Assembly (NCBI RefSeq): GCF_016862795.1
Contig: NZ_BONQ01000014.1
Coordinates: 124,001-188,000 of the forward strand
Direction: 5' to 3'
Origin: Dactylosporangium siamense
GTDB lineage: Bacteria > Actinomycetota > Actinomycetes > Mycobacteriales > Micromonosporaceae
DNA length: 64,000 nt
Shown here: positions 8,447 through 58,435 of the stretch, piece by piece
How the letters are laid out: each line of letters begins with the position of its first letter
Position numbering within the stretch: the stretch's first letter is position 1
Made by a program: the position numbers and the translations under genes
The notes under the pieces: model-generated
Told to the model about the DNA's origin: nothing
Databases searched by the model: none
Seen by the model: the letters and a program-made list of their open reading frames with translations, nothing else

Positions 8447-10753
8447 GTGCCGGCTGCGTTGCGCCTGCCGTCGTCGCGGCGGCTCGTCGGTGCGGTCGCC
8501 GGGTGCCTGCTCGCCGAGGCCGCCTGGACGACCGCGTACGCGGCGGGGCTGCCGGTGCCGAAGGTGCTGGCGTTGCTGCTGGTGCCGGCGGCGATGGGGC
8601 TGGCCGGGCTGACCGCGCTGGTCGCGGCCCGCACGCCGGGACTGGCCCCGGGCGGGCCCCGGTTCTGGCGGCAGCTGACCGTGTGCATCCTGCTGACCGG
8701 GGTCGGCGCGACGATCATGGGCCAGGCGAGGCTCAACCCGGACATGCCGAACGCCCTGCGGATCATCCAGCTGTCGGCGCCGGCGCTCGTGCTGGGCATC
8801 GGGCTGGCGATGTACGCGCTGCTGCGGCTGCCCGTGCGGGCCCAGTCCCGGGGAGAGTGGGTCCGGCTCGGGCTGGACGGGCTGACCGTGCTCATCACCA
8901 CCGCCCTGTTCCTGTGGCACCTGGCGCTCCGGCCGATGGTCGAGCGGCACACCGACGTGCGGCTCGCGCTGGGCCTGCTGATGCTGGCCACGACCTGCCT
9001 GGTCGCGCTGGTGGCGGTGATGAAGGTCGTCCTGCTCGGCAGCGGCCCGGTCAGCCCCCGCTCGATGCGGCTGCTCGCCTCGGCGATCCTCGCCGGCGGG
9101 CTCGGCTCGGCCGTGTCGCCGCTGATCGCCTCGCCACGCCTGGTGGGCATCCAGCCGATGATCACCCTGTTCGAGGCGCTGCTGGTGGCGTGGGCCGCGC
9201 ACGCGCAGACCCGGCCGGTTTCGGAGCCGGTCGCCGCCGCGCGCACCCGCACCTACAGCAAGCTGCCGTACTTCGCCGTCGCCGCCACGTCACTGCTGCT
9301 CGCCGCCGTCGCCTATGGTGACCACGCCGGCGTCGGCCCCGTCGCCACCGGCGCGATCGCGGTCAGCGCCGTCGTCGGGCTGCGCCAGCTGGTCGCGCTG
9401 CGCGACAACGCGCAGCTGCTCACCTCGGTCCGCCGGCACGAGCAGCGGCTGCGCTACCAGGCCAGCCACGACGCGCTCACCACGCTGGTGAACCGGGCGC
9501 ACTTCACCGAGCTGCTCGACGCGGCCCTCAGCACCGCCACCCGGCCGGTCGCGGTGCTGCTCATCGACCTCGACGACTTCAAACTCATCAACGACACGCT
9601 CGGCCACGCCGTCGGCGACGAGGTCCTGGTCACCGTCGCCGAGCGGCTGCGGCGGGCGGTGCGCCACGACGACGTGGTCGCCAGGCTCGGCGGCGACGAG
9701 TTCGCGATGCTGCTGCACGACGTCGACGGTGCGCACGCCGTCGACGTGGCCGGGCGCATCCGCGACACCCTCGGCACCCCCATCCACACCGCGGGCCACG
9801 ACCTGCTCGTGCACGCCTCCGTCGGCGTCGCCGCCTCCGCCCCCGGCGACCGCCTCGACACCCTGCTGCGCAACGCCGACCTCGCCATGTACGCCGCGAA
9901 GGAACACGGCAAGGGCGGCCATTTCGTCTACGTGCCGGGCATGACCACCCGGATCGTCGCGCACGCCGAGCTCGGCGCCCAGCTGCGCGACGCGATCGAA
10001 CTGGGTCAGCTGTTCCTGCTGTACCAGCCGATCGTGCGCCTCGACGACGGGCGGACCACCGCCACCGAGGCCCTCGTGCGGTGGCGGCACCCGGAGCGCG
10101 GGGTCGTGCCGCCGTGCGACTTCATCCCCGCCGCGGAGCAGACCGGCCTGATCGTGGCGCTCGGCCGCTGGGTGCTGCGGGAGGCGTGCCGGCAGCAGGC
10201 GCGGTGGCTGCGCGACCTCGGCGACGAAGCGCCGCAGTCCGTCAGCGTCAACGTCGCCGGCCGGCAGCTGACCGACCCGCAGTTCGTCGCCGACGTCGTC
10301 GCCGCCCTCGACGACGCCGGCCTCGACGCCGGGCGGCTCACCCTGGAGGTGACCGAGACCGCCGTCCTGGACCGGGCCGAGGCGATCGCGGCCCTCCACG
10401 CGCTGCGCGGGCTGCGGGTCAAGCTCGCCCTGGACGACTTCGGCACCGCCGCGTCGTCGCTGGGGCTGCTGCTCACGTGCCCGGTGACGTCGCTGAAGCT
10501 GGACCGCACGTTCGTCGACGGGATCACCACCGTCGCCCGGCAGGAGGCCGTCGCCACCGCCGTCATCCGCATGGCGCAGGCCCTGGAGCTGTCCGCGGTC
10601 GCCGAGGGCATCGAGACCGAGGCACAGGCGCGGATGCTGCGCAGCCTCGGATACCGCTTCGGGCAGGGCTACCTGTACGCACGACCTTTGGCGCCACACG
10701 ACGTCGCGGCACTGTCCGCACCGGCACTCATAGGCCGCCGTTCGTCGATATGA
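8447..10753 (+). CDS. Membrane GGDEF-EAL protein (c-di-GMP turnover)
   Basis: The protein is 768 aa, with about eight hydrophobic helices in residues 10-315. A GGDEF domain follows, with an intact RLGGDEF signature near residue 415 and LIDLDDFKLINDTLGH upstream of it. The EAL domain begins TEALVRWRHPERG near residue 538 and retains VNVAGRQL, VTETAV, LALDDFGTAASSL and LKLDRTFV. Both active sites look complete, so the protein may make and degrade cyclic di-GMP, with the membrane part sensing an unknown signal. The start GTG 8447 has a strong AGGAGG site. Actinomycete homologues often affect development. It ends 62 bp before the first condensation-like gene. Confidence 0.95.
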   Translation: MPAALRLPSSRRLVGAVAGCLLAEAAWTTAYAAGLPVPKVLALLLVPAAMGLAGLTALVAARTPGLAPGGPRFWRQLTVCILLTGVGATIMGQARLNPDMPNALRIIQLSAPALVLGIGLAMYALLRLPVRAQSRGEWVRLGLDGLTVLITTALFLWHLALRPMVERHTDVRLALGLLMLATTCLVALVAVMKVVLLGSGPVSPRSMRLLASAILAGGLGSAVSPLIASPRLVGIQPMITLFEALLVAWAAHAQTRPVSEPVAAARTRTYSKLPYFAVAATSLLLAAVAYGDHAGVGPVATGAIAVSAVVGLRQLVALRDNAQLLTSVRRHEQRLRYQASHDALTTLVNRAHFTELLDAALSTATRPVAVLLIDLDDFKLINDTLGHAVGDEVLVTVAERLRRAVRHDDVVARLGGDEFAMLLHDVDGAHAVDVAGRIRDTLGTPIHTAGHDLLVHASVGVAASAPGDRLDTLLRNADLAMYAAKEHGKGGHFVYVPGMTTRIVAHAELGAQLRDAIELGQLFLLYQPIVRLDDGRTTATEALVRWRHPERGVVPPCDFIPAAEQTGLIVALGRWVLREACRQQARWLRDLGDEAPQSVSVNVAGRQLTDPQFVADVVAALDDAGLDAGRLTLEVTETAVLDRAEAIAALHALRGLRVKLALDDFGTAASSLGLLLTCPVTSLKLDRTFVDGITTVARQEAVATAVIRMAQALELSAVAEGIETEAQARMLRSLGYRFGQGYLYARPLAPHDVAALSAPALIGRRSSI

Positions 10754-10814
10754 TCGCCGTCGATCCCTGTGCGACGATCCACGCGTCCTGGCGCGCGGCG
10801 TGTGGAGGTCGGTC

Positions 10815-12320
10815 ATGGTGGAGCGGATCGTGCAGCGGATCGTCGTCCCGTTCGAAGGCGACGGCGCCGGAGTCGGCGGCCTCACCTGGGGCCAGCAGCA
10901 GGTCTGGCGGGCGATGGTCGAGATCGACACCTCCATGAGCATGGGCGGGGTCGTGCCCGTCACCGACGGCCGCACCGTGGCGGACTTCGTCGACGAGCTG
11001 AGGTTCCTGATGAGCCGCTACGCGGCGCTGCGCTCCCGCCTGGTGTTCGACGAGCCGTGGCACGCCACCTCGCTCGACGTGTGCCACCTGGTGCGGCAGG
11101 AGATCGTCGCCCGCGGCGAGACGGTCCTGGAGGTCCACGACGCCGGCCCCGGGGAGGACCCGGCCGCCGTCGCCGACGCCCTCCACGTGGCGTGGAAGGC
11201 CCGCAAGTTCGACTACACCACCGAATGGCCGATCCGCGAGGCCGTCGTCCGGCAGGACGGCACGATCACCCACGTCGTCGTGGTCATCTGCCACGTCGCC
11301 ACCGACGGCAGCGGCCTCGGCACGATGATCCGCGAGCTGGGCGAACGGGACACGCCGCTCCGGCCGTACACGGCGATGCAGCCGCTCGAACTCGTCGCCG
11401 CGCAGCGCACCACCCAGCGGCAGACCGACACCGCGATGCGCTACTGGGAGGCGCAACTGCGCTCGATCCGGCCGCGCCGCTTCCCGTCTCGCGCTTCGCG
11501 TGACCCGTTCCCGTCTCGCGCTTCGCATGACCCGTTCCCGCCTCGCGCTTCGCATGACCCGTTCCCGCCTCGCGCTTCGCATGACCCGTTCCCGCCGGGC
11601 GCCGTCGCCGACCAGGACGGCCCCCGGTGGTGGCGGGTGACGTGGCGTTCCACGGCGCTCATGCTGGCCGCGGAGCGGGTCGCGGCCGCGCTCGGCATCG
11701 ACACCGCGCCGGTGCTGCTCGCTGCGTACGGTGCCGCGTTCAACACCGTGACCGGCCAGACGGCACCGTTCGCCACGCAGGTCATCGTCGGCAACCGGTT
11801 CCGGCCCGGCCTCGCCGACATCGTCAGCCCCATGGCGCAGAACGGCATCGTCGTCTTCGACGTGAGCGGTGACGGTGTCACCGCCCAGGAGGCCATCGGC
11901 CGGGCCCGCCGGGCGTCGATGAACGCGTCCAAGCACGCCTACTACGAGCCGGAAGCCCGGCTCGCCCTGATCGACCGGATCGGCCGCGAGCACGACGAGC
12001 CGTTCGACCTCTCCGTGTTCTACAACGACCGGCGGGTCGGCGTGATCCAGACCCAGGACCCCCTGGAGACGATGCCGAGCATGGACGAGATCCGCTCAGC
12101 GATGCCGCTGACCGGGATGGTCTCCGAGACGCCGGTGGTCTTCTTCAACGAGAAGCTGATGGTGAACATCGACGACGCCGTCGGCACCGCCCAGATCACC
12201 GTCGACTTCGACGCGCACCACATGCCGCTGGCGGAGGTACGCCGGCTGCTTCCGGCGATGGAGACCTTCACGGTCTCCGCCGCCGCTGCGGTGTCAGATC
12301 AGGCCGTTGCCTCGATGTAG
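10815..12320 (+). CDS. Stand-alone condensation-domain-like protein C1
   Basis: This 501-aa protein belongs to the C-domain acyltransferase fold. The HHxxxDG site appears as CHVATDG (His160, Asp164). Family features shared with the other condensation-like proteins in this window are the N-terminal PFEGDGAGVGGLTWGQ, the core VIVGNRFRPGLAD and the late YNDRR. The inter-lobe linker carries four 9-residue repeats (FPPRASHDP type) that the paralogues lack, which explains its extra length. The start ATG 10815 follows GGAGGT at six bases. Such free-standing C proteins join a carrier-bound acyl group to an amine or alcohol. The 3' end overlaps the convergent methyltransferase gene by 22 bases. Confidence 0.87.
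   Translation: MVERIVQRIVVPFEGDGAGVGGLTWGQQQVWRAMVEIDTSMSMGGVVPVTDGRTVADFVDELRFLMSRYAALRSRLVFDEPWHATSLDVCHLVRQEIVARGETVLEVHDAGPGEDPAAVADALHVAWKARKFDYTTEWPIREAVVRQDGTITHVVVVICHVATDGSGLGTMIRELGERDTPLRPYTAMQPLELVAAQRTTQRQTDTAMRYWEAQLRSIRPRRFPSRASRDPFPSRASHDPFPPRASHDPFPPRASHDPFPPGAVADQDGPRWWRVTWRSTALMLAAERVAAALGIDTAPVLLAAYGAAFNTVTGQTAPFATQVIVGNRFRPGLADIVSPMAQNGIVVFDVSGDGVTAQEAIGRARRASMNASKHAYYEPEARLALIDRIGREHDEPFDLSVFYNDRRVGVIQTQDPLETMPSMDEIRSAMPLTGMVSETPVVFFNEKLMVNIDDAVGTAQITVDFDAHHMPLAEVRRLLPAMETFTVSAAAAVSDQAVASM
11481..11600 (+). repeat. 27-bp in-frame tandem repeat inside C1
   Basis: Four full copies start at 11481, 11508, 11535 and 11562, with a partial fifth at 11589. Each begins TTCCCGCCTCGCGCTTCGC (or one variant) and encodes nine residues. 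Copies 3 and 4 are identical, pointing to recent expansion by slippage. Confidence 0.95.
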
Positions 12321-14690: not shown

Positions 14691-14746
14691 TCCTGAGCGG
14701 GGCCTGGTGTCCTGAGCGGGGCCTGGTGTCCTGAGCGGGGCCTGGT
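14691..14746 (+). repeat. 19-bp tandem repeat
   Basis: Three direct copies of TCCTGAGCGGGGCCTGGTG run back to back. Further diverged copies of the TCCTGAGCGGG core occur near 14775 and 14822 in a longer, looser repeat. Confidence 0.85.
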
Positions 14747-14885
14747 CAGTGCTGACGGCCGGCGGGTTGCCGCGGTCCTGAGCGGGTCCGGGCCTGTGCC
14801 GGTGGCCGGCAGGTTGCCACGGTCCTGAGCGGGGCCCGGCCTGTGCTGGCGGCCCGCAGGTTGCAGCGGGAGGTCAGGCCCGTGG

Positions 14886-14991
14886 GGCTCGGGGAGCAAC
14901 TGCGCGGGCTCGGGGAGCAGCTGCGCGGGCTCGGGGAGCAGCTGCGCGGGCTCGGGGAGCAGCTGCGCGGGGCTCGGGGAGCAGCTGCGCG
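14886..14991 (+). repeat. 21-bp tandem repeat
   Basis: Five copies of about GGCTCGGGGAGCAGCTGCGC repeat with a 21-base period; one extra G before the last copy breaks the frame. The core contains the palindrome GCAGCTGC, so each unit can form a small hairpin. Confidence 0.9.
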
Positions 14992-15089
14992 GAACCGCCG
15001 AACCCCAAGGACGACACCAGCTTGGCGCCACGCGGATTGCCCTCACCAGGAACCTCGACCGGCAGCCGTCACCGGCGCTTGGGGAGCCG

Positions 15090-17372: not shown

Positions 17373-17426
17373 CTACTTCTTCTTGCCCTTCTTGCCCTTC
17401 TTGTCCTTCTTCGACTTCTTCGCCAT
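17373..17426 (-). CDS. Lys-rich micropeptide
   Basis: An ATG at 17426 encodes MAKKSKKDKKGKKGKKK and a TAG stop. A GGAGAGGAG ribosome site lies upstream and a terminator-like hairpin downstream, so the unit has all the parts of a gene despite its 17 residues. Eleven of 17 residues are Lys, all AAG. Very short Lys-rich proteins of this kind occur in actinomycete genomes, possibly as nucleic-acid-binding peptides, but I know of no established function. It sits alone between the phosphodiesterase and the CYTH-CHAD gene. Confidence 0.6.
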   Translation of the reverse strand: MAKKSKKDKKGKKGKKK

Positions 17427-22451: not shown

Positions 22452-22907
22452 ATGAACAACTTCGACTTTTTCGTCGGCACGTGGACCTCGACGCAACGGC
22501 GGCTGCGCAAGATCCTCGCCGGAAGTGACGACTGGTACGAGTTTCCCGGCAACGTCCGCTGCTGGAACGTCATGGGTGGGGCTGCCAACGTCGACGAGAT
22601 CGAGTTCCCCGACCAGGGCACCAGCGGCATGACGCTGCGGCTGTACGACCCTGCGACGGAGCTGTGGTCGCTGTACTGGGCCACCACCCGCACCGGGCTG
22701 GTACTGCCGCCGATGGTGGGCCGGTTCGGCGATGACGGGCGCGGCGTGTTCAGCGGCGACGACGTGCACGACGGCACGCCGATCCGCTGCAACTACATCT
22801 GGTCGGCGATCACGCCGGAGTCGGCCCGGTGGGAGCAGGAGTTCTCCGCCGACGGCGGGCGGACGTGGGAGACGAACTGGGTCATGGACTTCACCCGGGC
22901 GGGTTGA
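22452..22907 (+). CDS. DUF1579-like small beta-barrel protein
   Basis: This 151-aa soluble protein opens NNFDFFVGTWTSTQRRLRK and continues with alternating beta strands and tryptophans (WNVMGG, LYDPATELWSLYWAT, RWEQEFSADGGRTWETNW). The pattern matches DUF1579/lipocalin-like proteins found under WYL or TetR control in actinomycetes; no enzymatic role is established. It diverges from the WYL regulator with the palindrome between them, so it is the likely regulated target and may sense or bind a small hydrophobic ligand (inference). Its last 17 bases overlap the convergent condensation-like gene C3. Confidence 0.75.
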   Translation: MNNFDFFVGTWTSTQRRLRKILAGSDDWYEFPGNVRCWNVMGGAANVDEIEFPDQGTSGMTLRLYDPATELWSLYWATTRTGLVLPPMVGRFGDDGRGVFSGDDVHDGTPIRCNYIWSAITPESARWEQEFSADGGRTWETNWVMDFTRAG

Positions 22908-24261
22908 GCGCGGCGTCGACGGCGGCGGACTCGATGCCGCGGGCGCACGCCTCGACCTGCGCCGGGGACAGCCGGTGCGTGTCCGCCCAGATGGCCAGGT
23001 CGACGGCCGCGTCGGCGGCGTCGACCTGCAGGTAGAAGGTGCCGTCGTAGGTCGGCAGGGTCCGGTCCCAGCGCAGCGTGGTGCCCGGCAGCGCGGCGCG
23101 GACCTGGTCGGCGGTGGGCGGCACCGCGGGCAGTGCCGCCGCCGGGCCGCGCCGGTCGTTGACGAAGCACGAGATGTCGATCGGCTCGCCGCGGTCGGCG
23201 GCGAGGCGGTCCAGCATCGCCCGGTGGTCGGCGGGGTCGTAGTAGCCGTGCAGGTAGGCACTCGTCGCGGCCCGCCACACCCGTTTCGCGACGGCGTCCA
23301 GGTAGCCGCCGCCGTCTCCACCGCCGCCGTCGCCGGCGCCGATGGAGACGTCGCCGATGGAGACGTCGATGACGCAGATGCCGGGCTGGGTCAGGTGGCA
23401 CACCGCGTCGGCGAAGCCGGGGCGGAACCGGTTGCTCACCAGGACCTGCGCGACGCTCGGGGTGCGTCCGGTGACCCGGGACAGGGCGACCCCGTAGGCG
23501 GCCAGCAGCACGTGCCCGGTCTCCACGCCGGCCCGCGCGGCGACGACCTGCAGGGCCAGGTGCAGCGCCGGCGAGTGGCAGACGACCTCCCAGAAGCGCG
23601 GGGTGCGCGGGTCGTCGGAGGTGCCGAACCGGGCCGCCGGCAGGTCCCGCAGCGCCGCCTCCCAGTGCCGCAGCGACTTCGCGCTGTGCCGGCGCTCGGC
23701 GGGCAGCGCCTGGCGGTGGGCGAGGTCCAGGGGACGGACACCGCCGGCCGGTGCGTCGTCGGCGAGGTGCGGGAGATCCCGCACGAGGGCCTCGATGCCG
23801 AAGCCGTCGACGGCGAGGTGGGAGTACTGCACGACGAGGTGGCTCGGCGTGCCGTCGACGGTGACCACGCCCCACCGGACCGGAAACTCGGTGGCCAGGT
23901 CGAACGGGGTGAACTCGTATCGGCTGCGCAGCGCCTCGGCCGCCGCCGCGGCACCGTCCGATGTGGACGCGATGACGTCGAGGTCGACGGCGCCGGACGC
24001 GGACAGGATCTGTCGCGGTGGTTCCCCGGCGAGGCTGAAGCGGGTGCGCAGCGCCTGGTGCCGGCTCACCAGCCGGCCGAGCGTGCCGGCGAGCTCGGCG
24101 ACGGACGCGTCCGGGCCGAGGGCCACGGTGCCGCCGATGTTCAGGGTCCGGCCGGTGCGCCGCATCGTCTGCCAGATCTCCCACTGGCCCCAGGTGAGCG
24201 GCGCGGTGCCGGCGCCGTCGCCGTGGAACGGCACGGCCAGGCGGGACGTGGCAACGTGCAT
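22891..24261 (-). CDS. Stand-alone condensation-domain-like protein C3
   Basis: This 456-aa C-domain-fold protein has the active-site motif YSHLAVDG (His148, Asp152). Signatures shared with the other members here are VPFHGDGAGTAPLTWGQ at the N-terminus, VLVSNRFRPGFADAV in the second lobe and CFVNDRR near residue 365. A low-complexity Gly/Asp loop (SIGDVSIGAGDGGGGDGGG) sits in the second lobe. It starts at ATG 24261, three bases after C2 ends, so C2 and C3 are one operon led by the 18-aa repeat peptide. Expected to catalyse amide or ester formation with a carrier-bound substrate; the acceptor could be the peptide encoded upstream, but nothing in the sequence proves that. Confidence 0.87.
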   Translation of the reverse strand: MHVATSRLAVPFHGDGAGTAPLTWGQWEIWQTMRRTGRTLNIGGTVALGPDASVAELAGTLGRLVSRHQALRTRFSLAGEPPRQILSASGAVDLDVIASTSDGAAAAAEALRSRYEFTPFDLATEFPVRWGVVTVDGTPSHLVVQYSHLAVDGFGIEALVRDLPHLADDAPAGGVRPLDLAHRQALPAERRHSAKSLRHWEAALRDLPAARFGTSDDPRTPRFWEVVCHSPALHLALQVVAARAGVETGHVLLAAYGVALSRVTGRTPSVAQVLVSNRFRPGFADAVCHLTQPGICVIDVSIGDVSIGAGDGGGGDGGGYLDAVAKRVWRAATSAYLHGYYDPADHRAMLDRLAADRGEPIDISCFVNDRRGPAAALPAVPPTADQVRAALPGTTLRWDRTLPTYDGTFYLQVDAADAAVDLAIWADTHRLSPAQVEACARGIESAAVDAALNPPG

Positions 24262-24264
24262 CGG

Positions 24265-25611
24265 CTACTCCTGCAGCGCGGCGACGACCACCAGTTCCTC
24301 GATTCCACGAAGAATCGCCACCAGATCGTCCGGTGCCACCCGCTGGGTGTCAACGCGCAGGCTGATGTCGACCGTGTCCGGCACCGGATTGATCAGGAAG
24401 AACACCGTGGCGTACGGGTCGTCGGAGTTCGTGCCCCACCGCAGCCGGCTCTCCGGCAACGCGTCGGTGATGTCGCTCGCGCTCGCGTGCGGCAGGACCT
24501 CCGCCGTCGCCATGGTCCGGCGCCGGTCGTTGAAGTAGGACTGCAGGTCGAGGGCGGCGCCGCGCTCCTCGCCCACCCGGGCGATCATGTCCCACAGGTC
24601 GCGAGGGTCGTAGTAGGCGTGCATGCCGGCGGTCAGCTGGGTCTTCCAGACGCGGGCGACGACCTCGTCGAAACTCACGTCCGCGGTGTCCACCACGCAC
24701 AGGGCGCTCTGCGCCAGACCCGCGACCGATTCCTTGAAGCCGGGCCGGAAGCGGTTGCTCACCAGCATCCGCACCACCGTGGTGGGGTCGCCGGAGATCC
24801 GCGCCAGCATCAGCACGTAGGCGGCGAGCAGGATCGTGCTGCTGTGCGCCTTGGTCCGCTCGGCGATCCGGCCGAGGGCGAGGTAGGCGGCGGGTGAGGA
24901 GTAGCTCGCCTCCCAGTACCGCGGCGACGGCGGGTCCGGCACCGGCGGGAAGCGCTCCGGCGCGATCTCGCGCAGCTGCTTCTCCCAGTGCCGCAGCGAC
25001 GTGTTGTGCTGCCGCCGCCCCGCGCCCCCGCGCTGCCGGCGGGCCAGGTCGGCGGGCTGGACGCCGGCGACCGGGGCGAGGTGCTCGCCGGTGGCCCGGT
25101 CCAGGTTGGCCATGTCGGCGATGAGCGCCTCGATGCCGTAGGCGTCGATCGCCATGTGGGAGTACAGCACGACGAACCACGCCGGGGTCCCGTCGCGGCA
25201 CACGACCGCGGCGCGCACCGGCCAGTCCTCGGCGTTGTCGAACGGCGCGTCCTGGAGCGCGGCGTCGAGGGCCGCGGCGACCTCGGCCGGGTCGTCCTCG
25301 CCCGCCTCGACGATCTCGATGAGGATCTCGCCTTCGCCGGACAGGACCTGCCGGGGCAGGCCGTCCTCGCCGAGCCGGTAGCGGGTCCGCAGTGATTGGT
25401 GCCGGCCGATGAGAAACGCGAGCTCCATGACGATCTGGTCGATCGTCTGGCCGTCGAGCAGCGGCATCGTGCCGCCGGCCCAGTCGACCCGGCCACCGCC
25501 GAGCTCCATGGATCTCCATGCCGCCCATTGGCCCCACGTCAATTCCTCGACACCCGATCCCTCACCCTTGAATCGGACCGGGATGCGCTGCGCCGTTGCA
25601 GTCTCCGCCAT
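24265..25611 (-). CDS. Stand-alone condensation-domain-like protein C2
   Basis: This 448-aa protein is the closest relative of C3 by eye. The active-site motif reads YSHMAIDAYG (His152, Asp156), with Ala in place of the usual last Gly. VRFKGEGSGVEELTWGQ, MLVSNRFRPGFKES and SYFNDRR are the family signatures. The start ATG 25611 lies about 100 bases downstream of the 18-aa peptide gene, with a perfect GC-rich hairpin between them. Free-standing C domains work with separate carrier proteins, of which this cluster encodes four (30781, 34175, 34456, 46564). The specific donor and acceptor are unknown. Confidence 0.87.
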   Translation of the reverse strand: MAETATAQRIPVRFKGEGSGVEELTWGQWAAWRSMELGGGRVDWAGGTMPLLDGQTIDQIVMELAFLIGRHQSLRTRYRLGEDGLPRQVLSGEGEILIEIVEAGEDDPAEVAAALDAALQDAPFDNAEDWPVRAAVVCRDGTPAWFVVLYSHMAIDAYGIEALIADMANLDRATGEHLAPVAGVQPADLARRQRGGAGRRQHNTSLRHWEKQLREIAPERFPPVPDPPSPRYWEASYSSPAAYLALGRIAERTKAHSSTILLAAYVLMLARISGDPTTVVRMLVSNRFRPGFKESVAGLAQSALCVVDTADVSFDEVVARVWKTQLTAGMHAYYDPRDLWDMIARVGEERGAALDLQSYFNDRRRTMATAEVLPHASASDITDALPESRLRWGTNSDDPYATVFFLINPVPDTVDISLRVDTQRVAPDDLVAILRGIEELVVVAALQE

Positions 25612-25662
25612 GACCTCTCGCCTCGTAATCGTCGGTGCAAACGCCGGCCGAAGGGACTGCGG

Positions 25663-25704
25663 GGCGGCCGGCCGGCGCCGCCTGCGCCGTGCCGGCCGGC
25701 CGCC
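25663..25704 (-). terminator. Perfect 14-bp hairpin between the 18-aa peptide and C2
   Basis: The arms GGCGGCCGGCCGGC and GCCGGCCGGCCGCC pair perfectly around a 14-base loop, starting nine bases after the peptide stop. Placed inside the operon, it would act as a partial terminator, giving more peptide transcript than C2-C3 transcript, as is common behind RiPP precursor genes. Confidence 0.65.
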
Positions 25705-25713
25705 ACGACAGGG

Positions 25714-25770
25714 TTAGAGCCGGGCGTTACGGAGCTGAGCGTTGCTACCACGCAGCTGAGCAGCCTTCAT
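25714..25770 (-). CDS. 18-aa repeat peptide (AQLR repeats)
   Basis: ATG 25770 encodes MKAAQLRGSNAQLRNARL, then TAA. GGGAGGTGCGAA directly upstream is a strong ribosome site with correct spacing. The sequence is two AQLR units plus a shortened ARL, close to the A(N/D)Lxx pentapeptide-repeat pattern. It is the first gene of the C2-C3 operon and is separated from C2 by a strong hairpin. It stands divergently, about 450 bases from the AISGR-repeat peptide gene, which has the same layout. It could be a substrate or scaffold peptide, a signal, or a regulatory leader. No cleavage site or recognised leader is visible. Confidence 0.65.
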   Translation of the reverse strand: MKAAQLRGSNAQLRNARL

Positions 25771-26217
25771 TTCGCACCTCCCTTGCCTGGTCACTGGAAA
25801 GTGCTCGAAAGGGACCACTGGCGTGTTGTCCGGTTCCAGACCTGTTCGGACCCGGACGATCGCGCGGGCCCACCCTGCAAGCACTGCACCGGAGCCTATC
25901 GGCTGTCTTCTACCTGACGAAAGAGGTGAGTATTGATCTCATCCAATCAATGCCCGAAGGTCCGAATTTTAACGATCGTTATGTCCGATTTCCGTGGAAG
26001 CGTCGGGGAAATGCGAAAGGCATTGAAAGTTTACGAAGTGGGAACACCGGCGGTTGACACGCTGCAAACCCCGGGCGATGCTTCTGTCGGTCATAGACTT
26101 CGGTCGTTCAAAATGACCGCAGGGGCTTCTGCAGATTCGTCGTGAAGTCGACGGATGAGGTGTGCCCTGCCATTCCATATCGCACTGTGATGTGCCAAAC
26201 GATATGAGGAGGTGAAC
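25771..26217. promoter_or_regulatory. Divergent promoter region of the two repeat-peptide genes
   Basis: This 447-bp gap has visibly lower GC than its surroundings. On the plus strand TTGACA at 26054-26059, a 17-base spacer and GATGCT at 26077-26082 form a near-ideal promoter, about 130 bases before the AISGR peptide. On the minus strand TAGGCT (25896-25891) is a possible -10 for the AQLR peptide, giving a leader of about 115 bases. Short open frames inside (for example 25933-26145) lack a good ribosome site. Confidence 0.55.
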
Positions 26218-26364
26218 ATGTCGAACGCCATCTCGGGCCGGGCCATCTCGGGCCGCGCCATCTCGGGTCGGGCCATCTCCGGCCGCGCTATCTCGGGTCG
26301 GGCGATCTCCGGCCGGGCCATTTCGGGTCGCGCCATCTCGGGCCGCCGCGCCATCTCGGGCTGA
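26218..26364 (+). CDS. 48-aa AISGR-repeat peptide
   Basis: ATG 26218, seven bases after AGGAGG, encodes MSN, eight consecutive AISGR units, an extra R and a final AISG before TGA. Nothing else is present: there is no leader region, Cys, acidic residue or aromatic residue. The 15-base DNA units vary at synonymous positions (TCG/TCC, GGC/GGT, CGG/CGC), so the peptide rather than the DNA repeat has probably been kept under selection. With about 10 positive charges it is strongly cationic. It is divergent from the 18-aa AQLR peptide and upstream of C4. Its nature (RiPP-like precursor, scaffold, signal or coding minisatellite) is open. I know of no described family with this sequence. Confidence 0.7.
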   Translation: MSNAISGRAISGRAISGRAISGRAISGRAISGRAISGRAISGRRAISG

Positions 26365-26520
26365 CCTGACGGCACCACCGAACCGAGCACCACCGCACAG
26401 GTGGGGAGCCCGCACCGGCACCCCCGGACGGCACCCGACGGGCATGGGTGTCACCAGGGTCCGGCCGGGTTCCCCTCCTCCGCACGACCACCGCAGCGAG
26501 CAGCACCCTGGAGGCACAGC

Positions 26521-27777
26521 GTGTCCGGCGATGAGACGTATCCGGCGACCGTCGGACAGCTGTCCGTCTGGCGCGAGATCGAGCGGCTGCCGGCCGACCG
26601 GCTGTGGGAGGCGAACCTCTCCTCCGTCTGGGACCTACCCGAGGGCGACTGGGGCGAGGAGCGGATCTGGTCGGCGCTCGGCGCCGCCGCCATGCGGCAC
26701 GCCTCGATGCGCACCACCTACGTGCTCGACGAGGGCGGATTCCCCCGGCAGCGCGTCGCCGCGCACTCCGTGCAGGAGGTCCTCGCCCAGGTCAGGCAGG
26801 GCACCGCCGACGTCGCCGAGCGCGAGGCCAAGGACACGGCCGAGCTGCAGCGGGCGATCGACACCACCGCGGAGCTGCCCTGGCGCGCCTGGATCCTGCT
26901 CGACGGCGGGACCCCGAAGCAGGTCCTCGTCGTGTTCAACCACATGGCCGCGGACGGGGTCGGCGGGCTCGTCCTGCGCGAGGACTTCGAGACCATCCTC
27001 GGCGGCACCGAGCTGCCGCCGGCGCCGGGGCCGATCGAGCTCGCCCTCGACCAGCAGGGCGAGGGCAGCGGGCGGCTGCGCAACGCCGAGCGCTACTGGC
27101 GGCGGACCATCAGCGCCGCACCCCACCGGCCCCCGGGCGGCGACGCGGAGCCGCTCGGCGCGGTGCTGCACACCGGCATCCCGATGCCGCTGGCCAACGA
27201 GGCCATCGGCAAGTTCGAGGTGACCCTGGCCAGCCTCATCCTCGCCGCCTACTACCGCGGCATCCAGGCGGCTACCGGGCAGGACGCGGTGCTGCTGCTG
27301 CTCATGTCGTCCAACCGCTTCGACGAGACGCACGCGCGGGTCGTCACCAGCCTCAACCAGTGGACTCCGCTGCTGCTGCAGTTCGAGCCGGACGAGCCGT
27401 TCGAGGAGATCCTGCCCAAGGTGCACTGGAAGGCGTTCAACGCGCTGAAGAACGGCGTCTGCTCACCGGACGCGATGTGGGTGATCCGTGACGAGCACGA
27501 GCGCCTCGACCCGCCCGTCGACCCCGGCTTCTCCTACAACCCGATGCTCGCGCCGCCCGGCTTCCCGTCCGAGGACCGCCTGGTCGCGCCGCGGATCGAG
27601 CGCTTCGAGCCGGCCCGCGCGACCGGTCCCGGCTTCTACCTGATCGTGCGCGGCCTGACGTCGCTGGACCTGGTCTTCCGCACCAGGCGGCACGGCTTCG
27701 ACGACGCCGCGATGACGACGATGCTGCACACGATCCAGGACCACCTCGCCGGCACGATCGGCGGCGAACGGCTCTGA
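26521..27777 (+). CDS. Stand-alone condensation-domain-like protein C4 (divergent)
   Basis: This 418-aa protein starts at GTG 26521, with TGGAGG upstream. The active site is FNHMAADGVGG (His141, Asp145). It lacks the FxGEGxG N-terminal segment of C1-C3 and C5, beginning directly at YPATVGQLSVWREI. It also has LMSSNRFDETHARVV and SYNPM where the others have NRFRPG and NDRR, so it is the most distant of the five. SSNR and QLSVW resemble ordinary NRPS C domains more closely. It lies about 160 bases after the AISGR-repeat peptide on the same strand, probably co-transcribed with it. A bidirectional terminator follows. Confidence 0.85.
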   Translation: MSGDETYPATVGQLSVWREIERLPADRLWEANLSSVWDLPEGDWGEERIWSALGAAAMRHASMRTTYVLDEGGFPRQRVAAHSVQEVLAQVRQGTADVAEREAKDTAELQRAIDTTAELPWRAWILLDGGTPKQVLVVFNHMAADGVGGLVLREDFETILGGTELPPAPGPIELALDQQGEGSGRLRNAERYWRRTISAAPHRPPGGDAEPLGAVLHTGIPMPLANEAIGKFEVTLASLILAAYYRGIQAATGQDAVLLLLMSSNRFDETHARVVTSLNQWTPLLLQFEPDEPFEEILPKVHWKAFNALKNGVCSPDAMWVIRDEHERLDPPVDPGFSYNPMLAPPGFPSEDRLVAPRIERFEPARATGPGFYLIVRGLTSLDLVFRTRRHGFDDAAMTTMLHTIQDHLAGTIGGERL

Positions 27778-27786
27778 GCAGGCGAC

Positions 27787-27817
27787 AAGGGCGCGACCCG
27801 CTCCGGGTCGCGCCCTT
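27787..27817. terminator. Bidirectional terminator between C4 and drrA-like gene
   Basis: AAGGGCGCGACCCG and CGGGTCGCGCCCTT form a perfect 14-bp stem with loop CTC, midway between two convergent genes. Confidence 0.9.
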
Positions 27818-27834
27818 CGTCGTGCCCGGGCGGA

Positions 27835-28788
27835 TCAGTCGCGCAGCGACCGTCCGGTCTTGGTGAGGAAGACGTCGTCCAGCGTCGGACGGTGCAGCTC
27901 GATCGTCTCCAGCTTGATCCCGGCGCCCTCGAGGGTGCGCATGATCTGCGGGATCGCCGAGTCCCCGGCGTCGACGTTGAGCCGCAGCTCGTTGTCCTCG
28001 CGGACCTCGACGCCGTTGGAGTAGGACTCCTTGCCCAGCAGCTCACCGGCCCGCTCGGCCTCCTCGGCGACCACGACGGTGACGACGTCGCCGGAGATCT
28101 CCCGCTTCAGGTCGGCCGGGGTGCCCTCGGCGACGATCTCGCCGTGGTCGATGATCGCGATCCGGTCGCAGAGCGCGTCGGCCTCGTCGAGGTAGTGCGT
28201 GGTGATGAAGACCGTCATGCCCTCGGCGCGCAGCCGGCGGATCTCGTCCCACATGTGGGCGCGGCTCTGCGGGTCCAGGCCGGAGGTCGGCTCGTCCAGG
28301 AACAGCACCTGCGGCTGGTGGATGACGCCCATGGCGATGTCGACGCGGCGGCGCTGCCCACCGGAGTACGTCTTGCACTTGCGGTCGGCGTACTCGGTGA
28401 GGTCGAACGCCGCCAGGGCCGCCTCGGCGCGCTTCTCCGCCTCGGCCTTGCCGATGCCGTACATGCGCGCCTGCAGCACGATCTCCTCGCGGCCGGTCAC
28501 GTCGTCGGTGGTGCCGCCGCCCTGCGCCACGAAGCCGATGAGGCGCCGCACCGCCTCGGGCTCGGTGCGCAGGTTCGCCCCGGCGATCGTCGCCTCGCCG
28601 TCGGAGGCCGACAGCAGGGTGGCGAGGATGCGCAGTGTGGTGGTCTTGCCGGCGCCGTTCGGGCCGAGGAAGCCGAAGATCTCGCCCTGCGCGACGTCCA
28701 GGTCGATGCCCTTGACCGCCTCGACGCTGGTCGCCTTCTTGCCGCGGCCGGACTTGTAGACCTTCTTCAGGCCCTTGATCTTGATCAT
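27835..28788 (-). CDS. ABC transporter ATP-binding protein, DrrA type
   Basis: This 317-aa ATPase has Walker A GPNGAGKTT near residue 45, the Q-loop GFVAQGGG, the signature YSGGQRRR, Walker B VLFLDEPTSGLDP and an H-loop TTHYLDEAD. The C-terminal extension is typical of the daunorubicin-resistance DrrA family. It pairs with the permease directly upstream (24-base gap, SD AGGAG before ATG 28788) to form an exporter, and is the last gene of the methyltransferase-ACP-glycosyltransferase-permease operon. This suggests export of, and self-protection from, the cluster product. Confidence 0.95.
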   Translation of the reverse strand: MIKIKGLKKVYKSGRGKKATSVEAVKGIDLDVAQGEIFGFLGPNGAGKTTTLRILATLLSASDGEATIAGANLRTEPEAVRRLIGFVAQGGGTTDDVTGREEIVLQARMYGIGKAEAEKRAEAALAAFDLTEYADRKCKTYSGGQRRRVDIAMGVIHQPQVLFLDEPTSGLDPQSRAHMWDEIRRLRAEGMTVFITTHYLDEADALCDRIAIIDHGEIVAEGTPADLKREISGDVVTVVVAEEAERAGELLGKESYSNGVEVREDNELRLNVDAGDSAIPQIMRTLEGAGIKLETIELHRPTLDDVFLTKTGRSLRD

Positions 28789-42644: not shown

Positions 42645-44270
42645 ATGGCGTCCACGAGCATCCGGGCGGCGCTCGCCGCCGACCCCGACGTCGGTGCCGG
42701 CAACGTGCTGCACAAGCTCATCGAGCACGGCGCGGCACTGGACGGGCCGGGCATCGCCTTCGACGTCGACGTCGACGGCTTCCCCGCCTGGCAGGGCCTC
42801 ACCCTCGGCGAGCTGCGGGAGCGGGCCGCGGCCCGGGCGGCGTGGCTGCACGCCTACGGCATCACCCGCCGCGACCCGGTCGCGATCTACGTGACCAGCT
42901 CCGCGGACTGCTTCCTCAACTGGATGGGCCTGGTCTGGCTCGGCGCGATCCCGGCGCTGATGAACCCGAACATCCCCGGCGACATCGCCGCCGCGTACAT
43001 CGGCAAGCTCCGGGCGACGGCGCTCATCACCGACGCCGCGCACATCGCCCGCCTGGACGGCCACGACGTCGGCATCCCCGTGCTGGACGCGGCCGACACC
43101 GGCACCGGCGACCCGGCGCAGGCGCCCGCGCCGTTCCGGCACCACGCCGACGACCCGATCGCGATCACCCATTCCTCCGGCACCACCCGCATGCCGACCG
43201 CCGTCGTGCACTCGCACGCCAGCCTGTTCCACGCCACCCGCAAGATCCGGCTGAGCGGCCCGAGGGCCCAGGGCACCGAGCGGATCCTCAGTGCCCTGCC
43301 AGCCCCGCACGCGGCCGGCATCATGACCATCAACCACGCCCTGAGCAACCGGTCCGAGCTGCTGTTCCTGTCGCAGCAGAGCGACGGCGGCGCGGTGCTC
43401 GACGCGATCGAGAAGTGGAAGCCGACCGGCGTGTTCGGCTTCGCCGTCACCTGGTCCGAGCTGGCCCGCTTCGACCTGTCGCAGCACGAGATGGACTCGG
43501 TGGCGCTGTGGTTCAACACCGGCGACTGCGCGCACGAGCCGCACATCCGCAACCTGGTCAACGTCGGTAGCCGCAACACCGTCACGCGAGCCGGCGTCTC
43601 CCGGGTGAAGGGCTCGATGTTCGTCGACGGGCTCGGCTCGACCGAGATGGGGCACTCCGCCTTCCACATCACCCACCGGCCCGACACCGAACGCTACGGC
43701 CGCTGCGTCGGCGTCCCGCACGTCTTCGCCGACGTGGCGCTGCTGGACACCGTGACGGGCGAGGAGGTCCCCGTCGGGCAGGTCGGCCACTTCGGCCTGA
43801 AGTCGCCCACGCTCGCGCCGGGGTACTGGAACGACCACGTCAACACGTACAAGAACCGCCTCAACGGCTACTACCTCACCGGCGACCTGATGTTCCGCGA
43901 CGAGGAGGGCTACTACTACCACGTCGACCGGGCCGTCGACTCCGTCGACCTCGGCGGCGGCAACTGGCTCTACACCGCCATGTCGGAGGAGCAGATCCTG
44001 CGGGCCGTGCCCGACGTGCGGGACTGCACCATCGTGTCGTTCAAGACCGACGCCGGCGTCGTCTCCGACGTGCTGCTGTCGCTGCACGAGAGCGCCGACC
44101 CGACCGTCGACCACACCTCCGCCGTCACGGCGGCGTTGACCCCGGCGGCCGCGGCGACGCTGCGCAAGGTCGTCGTGTTCCCCGACGAGAACATCGTCAC
44201 CGGCCCCACCGGCAAGGTCCGCAAGTTCCTGATGCGGCAACGGCACCTCGCCGAGATGGCGAATGCCTGA
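42645..44270 (+). CDS. AMP-binding ligase 2 with altered P-loop
   Basis: This 541-aa ANL-superfamily enzyme has DGLGSTEMGHS (A5), GYYLTGDLMFRD (A7), HVDRAVDSVDLGG (A8 region) and PTGKVRKFLM (A10 Lys). The A3 P-loop reads THSSGTTRMPTAVVHSH: the usual Lys after Pro is Thr, so phosphate handling may differ, although A10 Lys, the residue essential for adenylation, is present. Overall it looks closer to acyl-CoA synthetases or fatty-acyl-AMP ligases than to NRPS adenylation domains. It lies between the E1 genes and C5, overlapping the latter by eight bases. Confidence 0.85.
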   Translation: MASTSIRAALAADPDVGAGNVLHKLIEHGAALDGPGIAFDVDVDGFPAWQGLTLGELRERAAARAAWLHAYGITRRDPVAIYVTSSADCFLNWMGLVWLGAIPALMNPNIPGDIAAAYIGKLRATALITDAAHIARLDGHDVGIPVLDAADTGTGDPAQAPAPFRHHADDPIAITHSSGTTRMPTAVVHSHASLFHATRKIRLSGPRAQGTERILSALPAPHAAGIMTINHALSNRSELLFLSQQSDGGAVLDAIEKWKPTGVFGFAVTWSELARFDLSQHEMDSVALWFNTGDCAHEPHIRNLVNVGSRNTVTRAGVSRVKGSMFVDGLGSTEMGHSAFHITHRPDTERYGRCVGVPHVFADVALLDTVTGEEVPVGQVGHFGLKSPTLAPGYWNDHVNTYKNRLNGYYLTGDLMFRDEEGYYYHVDRAVDSVDLGGGNWLYTAMSEEQILRAVPDVRDCTIVSFKTDAGVVSDVLLSLHESADPTVDHTSAVTAALTPAAAATLRKVVVFPDENIVTGPTGKVRKFLMRQRHLAEMANA

Positions 44271-45615
44271 CACGATCCTGCCGGCCCTCGAGCTCGTCGC
44301 CACCACCCGGATCCCGGTGCGGTTCGACGGCGAGGGGGCCGGGATCGGCCCGCTGTCGTGGGGACAGCGATCCATCTGGCAGGACATGGTCCGCCAGCGT
44401 TCCTGGCTGCCCATCGGCGGATGGGCGGCGGTCCCGGACGGGACCACGCTCGAGGACGTCGCGGCCGATCTGCGGTGGGCGATGCGGCGGTACCCCACGT
44501 TCCGGACCCGGCTGCGCTTCGACGTTGACGGCTTCGACGGCGTGCCGGCGCAGTCCGTCGCCGCGTCGGGCACGATCTGGCTCGACGTGTTCGACGTGCC
44601 GCCCGGTGCCGACCCCGCGTCGTTCACGGCCGCGGTCGACGCCCACTACCGGGCCGAGCCCTACGACTTCGCGTCGCAGTGGCCGGTGCGGATGGGGGTC
44701 GTCCGGGTCGACGGTGTGCCCGCCTACCTGTCGACCGTCACCTGCCACCTCGTCACCGACGGCGTCGGCGGGCTGCTGATGCTCCGCGAGGTCGCCGCGC
44801 GGCACGAGTGCGGCCCGACCCTCGGCATGCAACCACTGGAGCAGGTGCGCTGGCAGGCCTCCCCCGACGGGCAGAAGCAGCGCGAGAAGGCGCTGCGGCA
44901 CTGGGACAAGATGCTGCGGCAGCTGCCTCCCGTCGCGCCGCTGGTGCCGGCCGGCGGGCCGCGGTATCACCGGGGCGAGTTCACGTCGGCTGCGCTCTAC
45001 ACCGCCACCCATGCCACCTCGGTCGTCTTCGACATCGACACCTCGCAGGTGCTGATGACCTGCCTGGCGCTCGCCCTCGCCGGCGAAGGACGGCCCGCGA
45101 TCATCCGGCCCATGGTGGACAACCGGTTCCGCCGGGGGCTCGGCGACGTCGTCGCGATGGTGGCGCAGCACGGGATCTGCGTGGCGGACGTGGCCGGTCT
45201 GTCCTTCGAGGACGCGATGCGCAAGACCGGGATCGCGGCGATGCTGGCCTACAAGTGGGCGTATCACGACCCGGAGACGGTGTCGTCGTTGTCGGCCACG
45301 CTCGACGTCGACCTCGAGGCCGGGATCTGGCTCAACGACCGGCGGACCATCAGCCGGCAGATGTTCCCCGGGTCCCGTCCGGACGCGGATCAGGTCCGCG
45401 CCGCCGGGCCGGGCGAGTTCCGCTGGACCGTCGCGCAGGACGACCCGTACGACCCGCTGAACGTCGACGTCGACGACGAACCGGGCCGGTTCCGGCTGAC
45501 CTGGTTCACGGACACGTGGCGGACCCCTCCGGCCCGGGTGGAGGCCCTGGCACGGGAGGTGGAGGCGCTGGCCGTACACCATGCGCTCGAGGCTCTTGAA
45601 AGGCAGACGCCGTGA
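44263..45615 (+). CDS. Stand-alone condensation-domain-like protein C5
   Basis: This 450-aa protein has the active-site motif TCHLVTDGVGG (His162, Asp166). It shares VRFDGEGAGIGPLSWGQ, PMVDNRFRRGLGDVV (Gly/Arg instead of Pro) and WLNDRR with C1-C3. It is the only member embedded in the main PKS operon, between ligase 2 and a KAS III-like gene with overlaps on both sides. It probably makes an amide or ester bond between a carrier-bound acyl group and an acceptor such as 4-hydroxyphenylglycine. Donor and acceptor are inference only. Confidence 0.87.
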   Translation: MPDTILPALELVATTRIPVRFDGEGAGIGPLSWGQRSIWQDMVRQRSWLPIGGWAAVPDGTTLEDVAADLRWAMRRYPTFRTRLRFDVDGFDGVPAQSVAASGTIWLDVFDVPPGADPASFTAAVDAHYRAEPYDFASQWPVRMGVVRVDGVPAYLSTVTCHLVTDGVGGLLMLREVAARHECGPTLGMQPLEQVRWQASPDGQKQREKALRHWDKMLRQLPPVAPLVPAGGPRYHRGEFTSAALYTATHATSVVFDIDTSQVLMTCLALALAGEGRPAIIRPMVDNRFRRGLGDVVAMVAQHGICVADVAGLSFEDAMRKTGIAAMLAYKWAYHDPETVSSLSATLDVDLEAGIWLNDRRTISRQMFPGSRPDADQVRAAGPGEFRWTVAQDDPYDPLNVDVDDEPGRFRLTWFTDTWRTPPARVEALAREVEALAVHHALEALERQTP

Positions 45616-51905: not shown

Positions 51906-52841
51906 ATGCCACTCGACCCGCAGCTGCAGGCGATGCGCAACCAGCGCGAACGCGACGGCGTCGCCCCGCTGTACTCGATGACCCTCGAGGCCGCCCGGGC
52001 CGCCGACCTCGCCTCCATCAAGGCCGCCGGCGGCACGCCCGAGCCGGTCGAGGACGTCACCGACCACTGGATCGCCGGACCCGACGGTCAGCTGCAGGTC
52101 CGGGTGTACCGCCCGAGCGGTGACCGCCCGTTGCCGGTGCTGGTCTACTTCTTCGGCGGCGGCTGGGTCCTGGGTACCATCGACACCGCCGACGGCATCG
52201 CCCGCACGCTCGCCAACAGCGCCGGCTGCCTGGTCGTCGTCCCCGGCTACCGGCTCGCGCCCGAGCATCCGTTCCCCGCGTCGATCGAGGACTGCTACGC
52301 CGCGGTCCGCTGGGTCGCCGACAGCGCCGCCGAGCTCGGCGCGGACCCGGCCCGCATCGCGGTCGGCGGTGACAGCGCCGGCGGCAACCTCGCCGCCGGG
52401 GTGACGCTGATCGCGCAGGAGGCCGGCGACCTCGCGCTCGCCGGGCAGCTGCTCGTCTACCCCAACACCGACCAGCTCGCCGACGACGAGTCCATGCGCG
52501 CCAACGACGACCCGTTCCAGTTCAACCACCACTCCGTCGCCTGGTACCGCCGGCACTACCTGATCGACCCCGACGACGCCGAGAACCCCCTGGCGTCGCC
52601 GCTGCGCGCGGAGACCCTCAAGGGCCTGCCCCCGGCGCTGATCATCACCGCCGAATACGACCCGCTGCGCGACCAGGGCGAACGCTACGCGAAGCGGCTC
52701 GCCGACGACGCCGTCCCGGTCACCCTCGCCCGCTACGACGGCATGTCCCACGGCTTCTTCGCGATGGCCGGGAGCGTCGACGAGAGCCGCGTCGCCCTGG
52801 CCCAGGCGGCCGCGCAGCTGCGAGCGTGGTTCGCATCCTGA
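51906..52841 (+). CDS. Alpha/beta hydrolase, hormone-sensitive-lipase family
   Basis: This 311-aa esterase has the oxyanion YFFGGGWVLG (HGGG variant), the nucleophile GGDSAGGNLA (Ser near 158), EYDPLRDQG (Asp) and YDGMSHGFF (His), a full catalytic set. The HGG-to-FGG change at the oxyanion motif is uncommon. It starts two bases after the SGNH stop and overlaps the downstream kinase by 16 bases, so the three genes form an operon. The substrate is likely a small acyl ester. Confidence 0.92.
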   Translation: MPLDPQLQAMRNQRERDGVAPLYSMTLEAARAADLASIKAAGGTPEPVEDVTDHWIAGPDGQLQVRVYRPSGDRPLPVLVYFFGGGWVLGTIDTADGIARTLANSAGCLVVVPGYRLAPEHPFPASIEDCYAAVRWVADSAAELGADPARIAVGGDSAGGNLAAGVTLIAQEAGDLALAGQLLVYPNTDQLADDESMRANDDPFQFNHHSVAWYRRHYLIDPDDAENPLASPLRAETLKGLPPALIITAEYDPLRDQGERYAKRLADDAVPVTLARYDGMSHGFFAMAGSVDESRVALAQAAAQLRAWFAS

Positions 52842-55243: not shown

Positions 55244-55440
55244 CCCGGCACCGGAACGACGCTCGGGTCGGCGACGCGGCACCGGAACGACGCTCGGGTC
55301 GGCGACGCGGCACCGGAACGACGCCCTGGGTTGGTGACACGGCACCGGACCTCCGCCGGGGTTGGTGACCCGGTACCGGAACGGCTCGGGGCTCGGTGAC
55401 GCGGCACCGGAACGACGCCGGGTTGGTGACCCGGCGCCGG
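55234..55440 (+). repeat. Tandem repeat of about 31 bp, seven copies
   Basis: The units share GGTTGGTGACCCGG followed by CACCGGAACGACG, with variants GTCGGCGACGCGG and CTCGGTGACGCGG. The first copy contains the stop codon of the upstream gene, and the array ends just before the STAND gene. Confidence 0.9.
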
Positions 55441-55458
55441 ATCGGCGAAGATCGCTGC

Positions 55459-58225: not shown

Positions 58226-58321
58226 GTCCTGGCCCGTCGTCCCGTCTCTGGACGCTGCCGGAACATCCCGGGGCGATCTGGGTTCGGGTGGACGCGGGCC
58301 ATCGGCGGCACGGCAGGGGCG

Positions 58322-58435
58322 GGCCGCCGCACACGGCAACGCAGGGAGCCGGCCGCCGCACACGGCAACGCAGGAGCCGGGCGCCGCACACCGGCAACGC
58401 AGAAGCCGGCCGCCGCACACCGGCGCCGCGATGCT
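58322..58435 (+). repeat. Tandem repeat of about 29 bp, four copies
   Basis: The units of the form GCCGGCCGCCGCACACGGC followed by AACGCAG lie between the DUF4259 gene and the convergent permease gene. No gene is present between 58226 and 58459. Confidence 0.85.

Follow-up and report, generated by a model that had tools for sequence, protein, structure and literature searches.

A tiny gene built of five-residue repeats, located in a biosynthetic cluster of Dactylosporangium siamense, is real, is under selection in related organisms, and forms part of a wider set of genes for mini-peptides. Here we document the ORFs of this set, their linkage to enzyme genes, the selection acting on the repeat units, and the family of the enzymes concerned. 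The module of peptide and condensation enzyme occurs both within and outside the biosynthetic cluster, and the observations suggest that the mini-peptide is a substrate or a switch of the condensation enzyme encoded directly downstream.

Two repeat-peptide genes in a divergent intergenic region

The features that define the locus lie in the window, the whole 64,000-nucleotide stretch of D. siamense DNA that was analysed:

26054-26082, + strand: proposed promoter of the D-peptide transcript (TTGACA at 26054-26059, GATGCT at 26077-26082, spacer 17)
26207-26212, + strand: AGGAGG ribosome-binding site of the D-peptide, whose ATG start is at 26218
26218-26364, + strand: D-peptide gene, 48 amino acids, MSN(AISGR)8RAISG by translation
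26521-27777, + strand: gene D, free-standing condensation enzyme; GTG start at 26521, PF00668, HMAADG motif, condensation fold
25970-25981: palindrome TAACGATCGTTA in the divergent promoter region
25714-25770, - strand: C-peptide gene, a second repeat peptide, MKAAQLRGSNAQLRNARL; ribosome site GGGAGGTG
25663-25704, - strand: hairpin after the C-peptide stop codon, a 14-bp perfect stem
24265-25611, - strand: gene C, free-standing condensation-like; PF00668, with HMAIDA replacing HxxxDG
22891-24261, - strand: gene B, condensation-like, directly after gene C
44263-45615, + strand: gene E, condensation-like

A preliminary description, made from this stretch, had reported the repeat peptide, an AGGAGG site before it, a condensation-like gene 3' of it and the lack of a leader. 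Exact translation agrees with the first of these, the site is present, the downstream gene matches the Pfam Condensation family (PF00668, E 8e-10), and the repeats start within the first few residues, with no leader region apart from a core. The promoter that it had proposed held up in part: both hexamers are kept in all five aligned Dactylosporangium upstream regions, with a spacer of 17 in four of them and of 18 in D. fulvum, whereas a scan for sigma-70 consensus promoters upstream of the D-peptide found none. Immediately 5' of the ribosome site is an inverted repeat, CATATCG...CGATATG (26176-26206), partly conserved in the aligned Dactylosporangium sequences.

The 15-base array at the D-peptide gene was reported by Tandem Repeats Finder, and its two-unit DNA motif, allowing up to two mismatches, occurs five times in the window vs none in 100 shuffles; the D-peptide is also the strongest period-5 peptide stretch in the window. 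Other tandem arrays reported by the same program lie at 55229-55441, 58306-58420, 14691-14992 and 11481-11596. Scanning six of the peptides against Pfam gave no model above cut-off (0/6), the best for the window D-peptide being a beta-solenoid model (E 0.022; 15.1 of 30 bits, below cut-off), and an NCBIfam search with the peptides gave nothing above cut-off. A pentapeptide-repeat fold was rejected. The sole match in an Rfam search of 24000-28000 was a trypanosome snoRNA model, again below cut-off.

The C-peptide precedes gene C and is oriented divergently from the D-peptide, and each is the ORF nearest to the shared intergenic region on its side. The palindrome in this region, present in three of five aligned species, is a possible operator. 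In the six gaps longer than 60 nt in the gene list (21383 to 51903), the scan returned only these two peptides and two GTG-started ORFs in other gaps, which were discounted; upstream of gene E no mini-ORF was found. Another very small ORF of repeat-like character, MAKKSKKDKKGKKGKKK, lies behind a strong ribosome site at 17373-17426(-), and has a relative, MAKKSKKGKKDKKDKKGKKK, in D. aurantiacum (L038, 992-1054(-)).

Condensation enzymes and the surrounding cluster

Gene D combines a PF00668 match, the HxxxDG motif and a condensation fold, the three marks by which a free-standing condensation enzyme was recognised. Among solved structures its sequence profile is nearest SgcC5 (4znm, E 7.5e-15), and its predicted fold (mean pLDDT 80, from 10 sequences) best matches the enacyloxin chain-release condensation domain 6cgo. 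The rest of the cluster comprises the following:

27835-52841: ABC ATPase, glycosyltransferase, ACPs, methyltransferase, two AMP-ligases, KSs and KSIII
27835-52841: HmaS-like dioxygenase, PhyH, DUF3050 and E1 alpha/beta
27835-52841: FMN dehydrogenase, GDSL and alpha/beta hydrolases
27835-52841: permease, PPTase-like and aminotransferase-like genes, named from sequence

The glyoxalase/HPPD-type (HmaS-like), FMN-dehydrogenase, E1 and aminotransferase-like genes suggest that this cluster may make a hydroxyphenylglycine or hydroxybenzoyl unit. A non-exhaustive scan of the window genes revealed no leader-recognition domain or classical RiPP enzyme, and the only peptidase signal among the genes scanned was a sub-threshold Peptidase_S9 match on an alpha/beta hydrolase. 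At the cluster edge, 52826-53695(+) matches the aminoglycoside/hydroxyurea phosphotransferase family (PF04655).

Conservation in Dactylosporangium and Catelliglobosispora

Homologues of gene D (E <= 1e-60) occur in 12 of 300 genomes of the family, own included; most of these come from Micromonospora species, from Catelliglobosispora koreensis, or from D. aurantiacum, D. fulvum, D. sp. AC04546, D. sucinum or D. vinaceum, and the gene is carried by six of the seven Dactylosporangium genomes examined, again counting the window's own. A class-wide search of 394 genomes at the same threshold matched only the window's own gene. As a test set beforehand, the preliminary description had asked for a repeat peptide beside orthologues of the downstream gene, and one was found in the window and in all six other orthologous clusters; a repeat peptide thus precedes gene D in 7/7 clusters of Dactylosporangium and Catelliglobosispora. 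A short gene conserved beside a candidate modifying enzyme, as expected of a RiPP precursor, is accordingly seen at all seven orthologous D loci, and also at 15 of 17 Micromonospora D-like loci.

Unit sequence and copy number vary among the relatives (VVSSR, VVSGR/AVSGR, AVSSR and xIISR), and nearly all units end in Arg. The D-peptide is MR(VVSSR)5 in D. aurantiacum, MPNTAKR followed by VVSGR/AVSGR units in D. fulvum, MSNAALR(VVSGR)5RVVSG in D. sp. AC04546, with six units instead in D. sucinum, MKAVSSRAVSSRGIKSRAVSSRAVSSRAIKSS in C. koreensis and MPSIISRKIISRVISN in D. vinaceum. The C-peptides of relatives are MKSAQLRGSNAQLRSVNAQLRNARL, MKGAALRGARL, MKNAALRNAALRNARL (in two species) and MKDAVSLRSASQLKLARLARRAEAQL. 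From a set of 29 window genes (ACP3 was left out), the fetched stretches contain homologues of 27 in D. aurantiacum, 26 in D. fulvum, and 25 each in D. vinaceum and C. koreensis. Local arrangement differs: in C. koreensis genes C and D are in tandem, not divergent, each immediately preceded by its own peptide; about 665 nt separate the D-peptide from gene D in D. fulvum; and in D. vinaceum gene C was not found within the 40 kb examined.

Selection on the repeat units

In five arrays (the window's own and those of four Dactylosporangium species), comparison of the units with their consensus shows synonymous change in 29 of 30 distinct substitution types, against an expected share of about 0.26-0.33; a binomial calculation at 0.27 gives 7e-16, with the reservation that types are not strictly independent events. 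Copy number changes while this pattern holds, and we therefore conclude that every unit is maintained as amino-acid sequence. The count left out the short D. vinaceum peptide and also C. koreensis, the latter because its units GIKSR and AIKSS differ; pairwise, the C. koreensis units have 19 synonymous and 26 non-synonymous codon differences. Selection is less clear in Catelliglobosispora, as it is in a 12-residue Micromonospora ORF described below. One antisense frame (ARPEM/I) is also a five-residue repeat, but has more amino-acid variation (M/I, D/E); because it shares the wobble positions, synonymous variation alone cannot fix the strand. The sense strand is fixed by the start codon, the ribosome site and the stop, together with the comparison across species. 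Synonymous variation as a sign of selection, another point of the preliminary description, is thus borne out by the five arrays as regards the units, but not as an argument for the strand.

Short relatives upstream of D-like and C-like genes

Among 160 Micromonospora genomes, 17 carry a D-like gene (E <= 1e-70), and in 15 of these a mini-ORF of 7-8 residues with a strong ribosome site lies upstream: MKNNSAG (3), MKGNSAG, MVKNDCAG (3), MRKDDCAG, MRKDDCAS, MRKGDCAS (2), MRKDDCTA, MRKDDCVK (2) and MRKNDCAT. No upstream mini-ORF was found at the remaining two genes, L157 and L158. Ser or Cys is second or third from the C-terminus in all 22 D-type peptides, as judged by eye in related, non-independent sequences. 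Eight Micromonospora loci have a further upstream ORF of 12 residues (MRSVGKRGVSWT or similar), in which changes are mostly non-synonymous; at these loci (L147, L149, L150, L151, L152, L154, L155 and L156) it is 5' of the MRK-DC mini-ORF, and a CCTCC stretch between the two could mask the second ribosome site. The surroundings of the Micromonospora D-like genes are unlike the window cluster, one locus having a second condensation gene, a carrier protein, a P450, an adenylating enzyme and an aminotransferase. In M. lupini (L045, 15311-16489(-)) a radical-SAM/SPASM protein adjoins a carrier protein and a D-like gene.

Upstream of C-like genes, mini-ORFs were sought by a rule demanding an ATG-started ORF of 5-30 residues, a ribosome-site energy of at most -6 kcal/mol and a hairpin of at least 8 bp no more than 75 nt from the stop. 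The rule picks nine of 54 condensation-like entries, among which one gene was entered twice (L117, L140) and the gene start is only estimated for eight among L129-L140. These nine are the six cluster genes C together with L106 (MKAVRSL), L107 (MPKAVRSL), which lies in the window's own genome, and L095 (MKSVRSL). None of seven further upstream stretches was picked, two of them (L170, L172) deriving from genes already entered; by inspection, C. koreensis L108 has MVVREL upstream with an imperfect hairpin. No Ser or Cys is conserved among the C-type peptides.

The HxxxDG motif is intact in the enzymes of L106, L107 and L095. Searching the 20-kb stretches around these three loci with 30 window genes by tblastn recovered a relative of gene C only, and with no other homologue of the window cluster there, no donor-making gene is evident around them. 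The nine rule-positives fall within one clade of 12 in a tree built from 30 gene-C relatives and do not form a clade of their own, the mini-ORF label requiring three changes, not one; within that clade L108 is positive by inspection, and L094 and L114 have no comparable ORF. Condensation-like genes that lack other window-cluster homologues nearby are placed in L163 (about 10303-11637), L164 (9266-10690) and L165 (10057-11343), and each has an upstream ORF of 7-8 residues and a hairpin.

Hairpins and RNA folding

Between the peptide stop and the enzyme gene, a perfect hairpin exceeds shuffled sequences (at most 5 of 100) at 22 of 28 loci, L156 being excluded from this count. No hairpin beyond shuffles was found for gene D of the window (5 bp), D. 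fulvum, C. koreensis and D. vinaceum (6 of 100), for gene C of D. sucinum, or at L147. Controls exceeded shuffles in 5 of 20 cases, or 3 of 17 after removal of the mini-ORF carriers L106, L107 and L108; the control segments were fixed at 120 nt, the target segments ranging from 61 to 665 nt. At gene D of D. vinaceum a stem is followed by TTTTT.

With the ORF modelled as ribosome-covered, accessibility of the downstream start region shifts by at least about 0.1 at 7 of 26 loci (an increase in five, a decrease in two), and a translation-dependent switch in accessibility thus has no consistent signature across the 26, some of whose gene starts are approximate. Pairing between the ORF and downstream sequence is extensive (about 12-40 expected pairs) at nine of 12 Dactylosporangium and Catelliglobosispora loci, window genes D and C being represented, a result with which a leader mechanism would be compatible; it is low (<8) at 12 of 14 Micromonospora loci, several of which have approximate gene starts.

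Substrate, switch or chance

The leading mechanism, which we put forward tentatively and with rather less than even confidence, is that the peptide is a ribosomal acceptor or precursor for its condensation enzyme. The two parts of the module would be a ribosomally made mini-peptide and its free-standing condensation enzyme; with the peptide gene first and provided with a strong ribosome site, the frequent stem-loop may let the peptide, if translated as its signals predict, exceed the enzyme in amount. Enzymes of this type take an acyl or aminoacyl chain off a carrier protein and transfer it to an acceptor; here the acceptor would be the peptide itself, or the peptide would be a precursor with several acceptor sites, the bond formed and the end product being inferred as well. 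An ancestral peptide of 7-8 residues may have been amplified into the Arg-ended five-residue repeats of the Dactylosporangium and Catelliglobosispora clusters, and by such amplification a single peptide would present multiple Ser acceptors, or multiple cores that cleavage after Arg might release. Repeat peptides before gene D in seven clusters of two genera, despite altered gene order, speak for this mechanism, as do the almost wholly synonymous variation in five arrays, the non-repeating relatives in other lineages (thiovarsolin precursors, too, range from no repeat to five), the precedent of five-residue precursors in the biarylitides, the Ser or Cys near the C-terminus of all 22 D-type peptides, and the likeness of gene D to SgcC5 and the enacyloxin domain, which take free acceptors. 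Against it stand the lack of any leader-recognition domain or classical RiPP enzyme among the window genes scanned, the three C-type modules around which no donor-making gene is evident, the C-type peptides without conserved Ser or Cys, the more variable units of C. koreensis and the mostly non-synonymous changes of the Micromonospora 12-residue ORF. That a peptide stays beside its own enzyme is, moreover, explained equally well by a leader acting in cis.

Such a leader, in which translation of the mini-ORF (for example through stalling by the product or by amino-acid shortage) controls the downstream condensation gene, ranks close behind as a quite plausible account. Speaking for it are a short ORF and strong ribosome site directly before the enzyme gene, in constant position even outside the cluster, a hairpin before the gene at 22 of 28 loci, and extensive pairing with downstream sequence in most Dactylosporangium and Catelliglobosispora loci. 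The start MVKND- of some Micromonospora peptides may recall the cat-86 leader MVKTD, and an antibiotic-sensing uORF is known in E. coli (PMC12121999). Leader control is harder to reconcile with accessibility shifts at so few of the 26 loci, with low pairing in Micromonospora, with the non-significant 5-bp hairpin at window gene D, and with Arg codons of the Dactylosporangium units that are CGC, CGG and CGT; nor are eight identical units obviously required for it. Two other functions appear improbable. One is a multi-copy precursor of a free Arg-ended pentapeptide (a signal or antimetabolite) on which the condensation enzyme does not act; Arg-ended units and variable copy number fit this, but no export signal is apparent by eye, the relatives of 6-8 residues have no repeats, and linkage to condensation genes goes unexplained. 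The other, to which we assign a similarly small probability, is a small partner whose binding would activate the condensation enzyme, much as MbtH proteins help adenylation domains. The pairing of one peptide with each enzyme, kept through rearrangement, favours such a partner, but 6-8 residues are very short for one, and copy number varies widely. Least probable is untranslated low-complexity DNA or a chance ORF. A D-peptide profile built from six peptides does match 95 of 397 genomes of the order, so similar repeats often arise in G+C-rich DNA, and at L059, for one, a perfect GCGGTGTCGGGGCGG array lacks an ATG. Among the 30 best profile loci, however, only the window's own has both a condensation gene and, at the array, an ATG with a ribosome site; the other 29, loci of about 2-3 kb without a match in tblastn with the five window condensation genes, were rejected as homologues. 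Conservation at the same site in seven clusters, synonymous variation, and the conserved ribosome site and promoter already contradict a chance origin on comparative sequence grounds, and it is conserved place and synonymous variation that distinguish the window peptide from chance repeats.

The interpretation in the preliminary description, founded on a conserved repeat peptide and its synonymous variation, stands to that extent; it had omitted a cis-acting leader, the second peptide and the relatives of 6-8 residues. The roles that it had offered for the D-peptide as an acylated scaffold or multi-copy precursor are possible, and its signal-peptide role has no direct support. Extending the acceptor mechanism, stand-alone condensation enzymes might take ribosomal mini-peptides of 6-48 residues as acceptors, with Ser or Cys near the C-terminus before gene D and ending in Leu before gene C, and so represent a new hybrid class of natural products, a generalization that we regard as conceivable but on balance doubtful. 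An acceptor of the kind that a carrier protein bears in ordinary nonribosomal synthesis would then be genome-encoded, and the cluster-free versions would be the smallest biosynthetic systems of the hybrid kind. If the peptide is a substrate, ribosomal and nonribosomal synthesis meet in a two-gene unit whose acceptor is open to alteration by mutation; as a leader, the peptide would be a translation sensor built of repeats and tied to one enzyme family. On either account, genes of 6-48 codons become searchable by a ribosome site, a short peptide, a frequent hairpin and a condensation gene.

Comparison with known systems

None of the matches listed in open-licence literature, as represented by titles and the starts of abstracts, describes these peptides or this cluster, and the repeat strings of the peptides do not occur in the open-licence literature searched; closed journals were outside its scope. 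The closest likeness of the enzyme, in sequence profile and predicted fold, is to SgcC5 and the enacyloxin chain-release condensation domain, both of which take free acceptors; we know of no genetically encoded peptide beside either. The gene arrangement resembles that of microcin C, where the heptapeptide gene for MccA is followed by a hairpin and then by the modifying enzyme, but MccB is an E1-like adenylating enzyme, in place of which a condensation enzyme is found here. Regulatory leaders such as those of cat and erm likewise place a short ORF before the regulated gene; to our knowledge, repeat amplification has no precedent in regulatory uORFs of this sort, toiL included. The regulatory uORF toiL of E. 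coli has the same arrangement (PMC12121999), and the present loci differ from it, and from the cat and erm leaders, in that no consistent alternative structure was found.

Ribosomal precursors offer further parallels. In the biarylitides, a five-residue precursor is encoded by an 18-bp gene and a cytochrome P450 makes the biaryl bridges (PMC13417212), whereas the D and C peptides have no aromatic residue. Thiovarsolin precursors (VarA), also from actinomycetes, vary in repeat number from none to five between species (PMC6511847), and in this they are like the repeat peptides; they differ in using YcaO and TfuA and in having a predicted leader before the repeats, where the present system has a condensation enzyme and no leader. 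In pheganomycin biosynthesis a ligase joins a small core peptide to the nonproteinogenic phenyl-guanidinoacetic acid (PMC8939145), and the window cluster has HmaS-like and FMN-dehydrogenase genes; that ligase, PGM1, is of the ATP-grasp type, which was not encountered among the genes scanned here.
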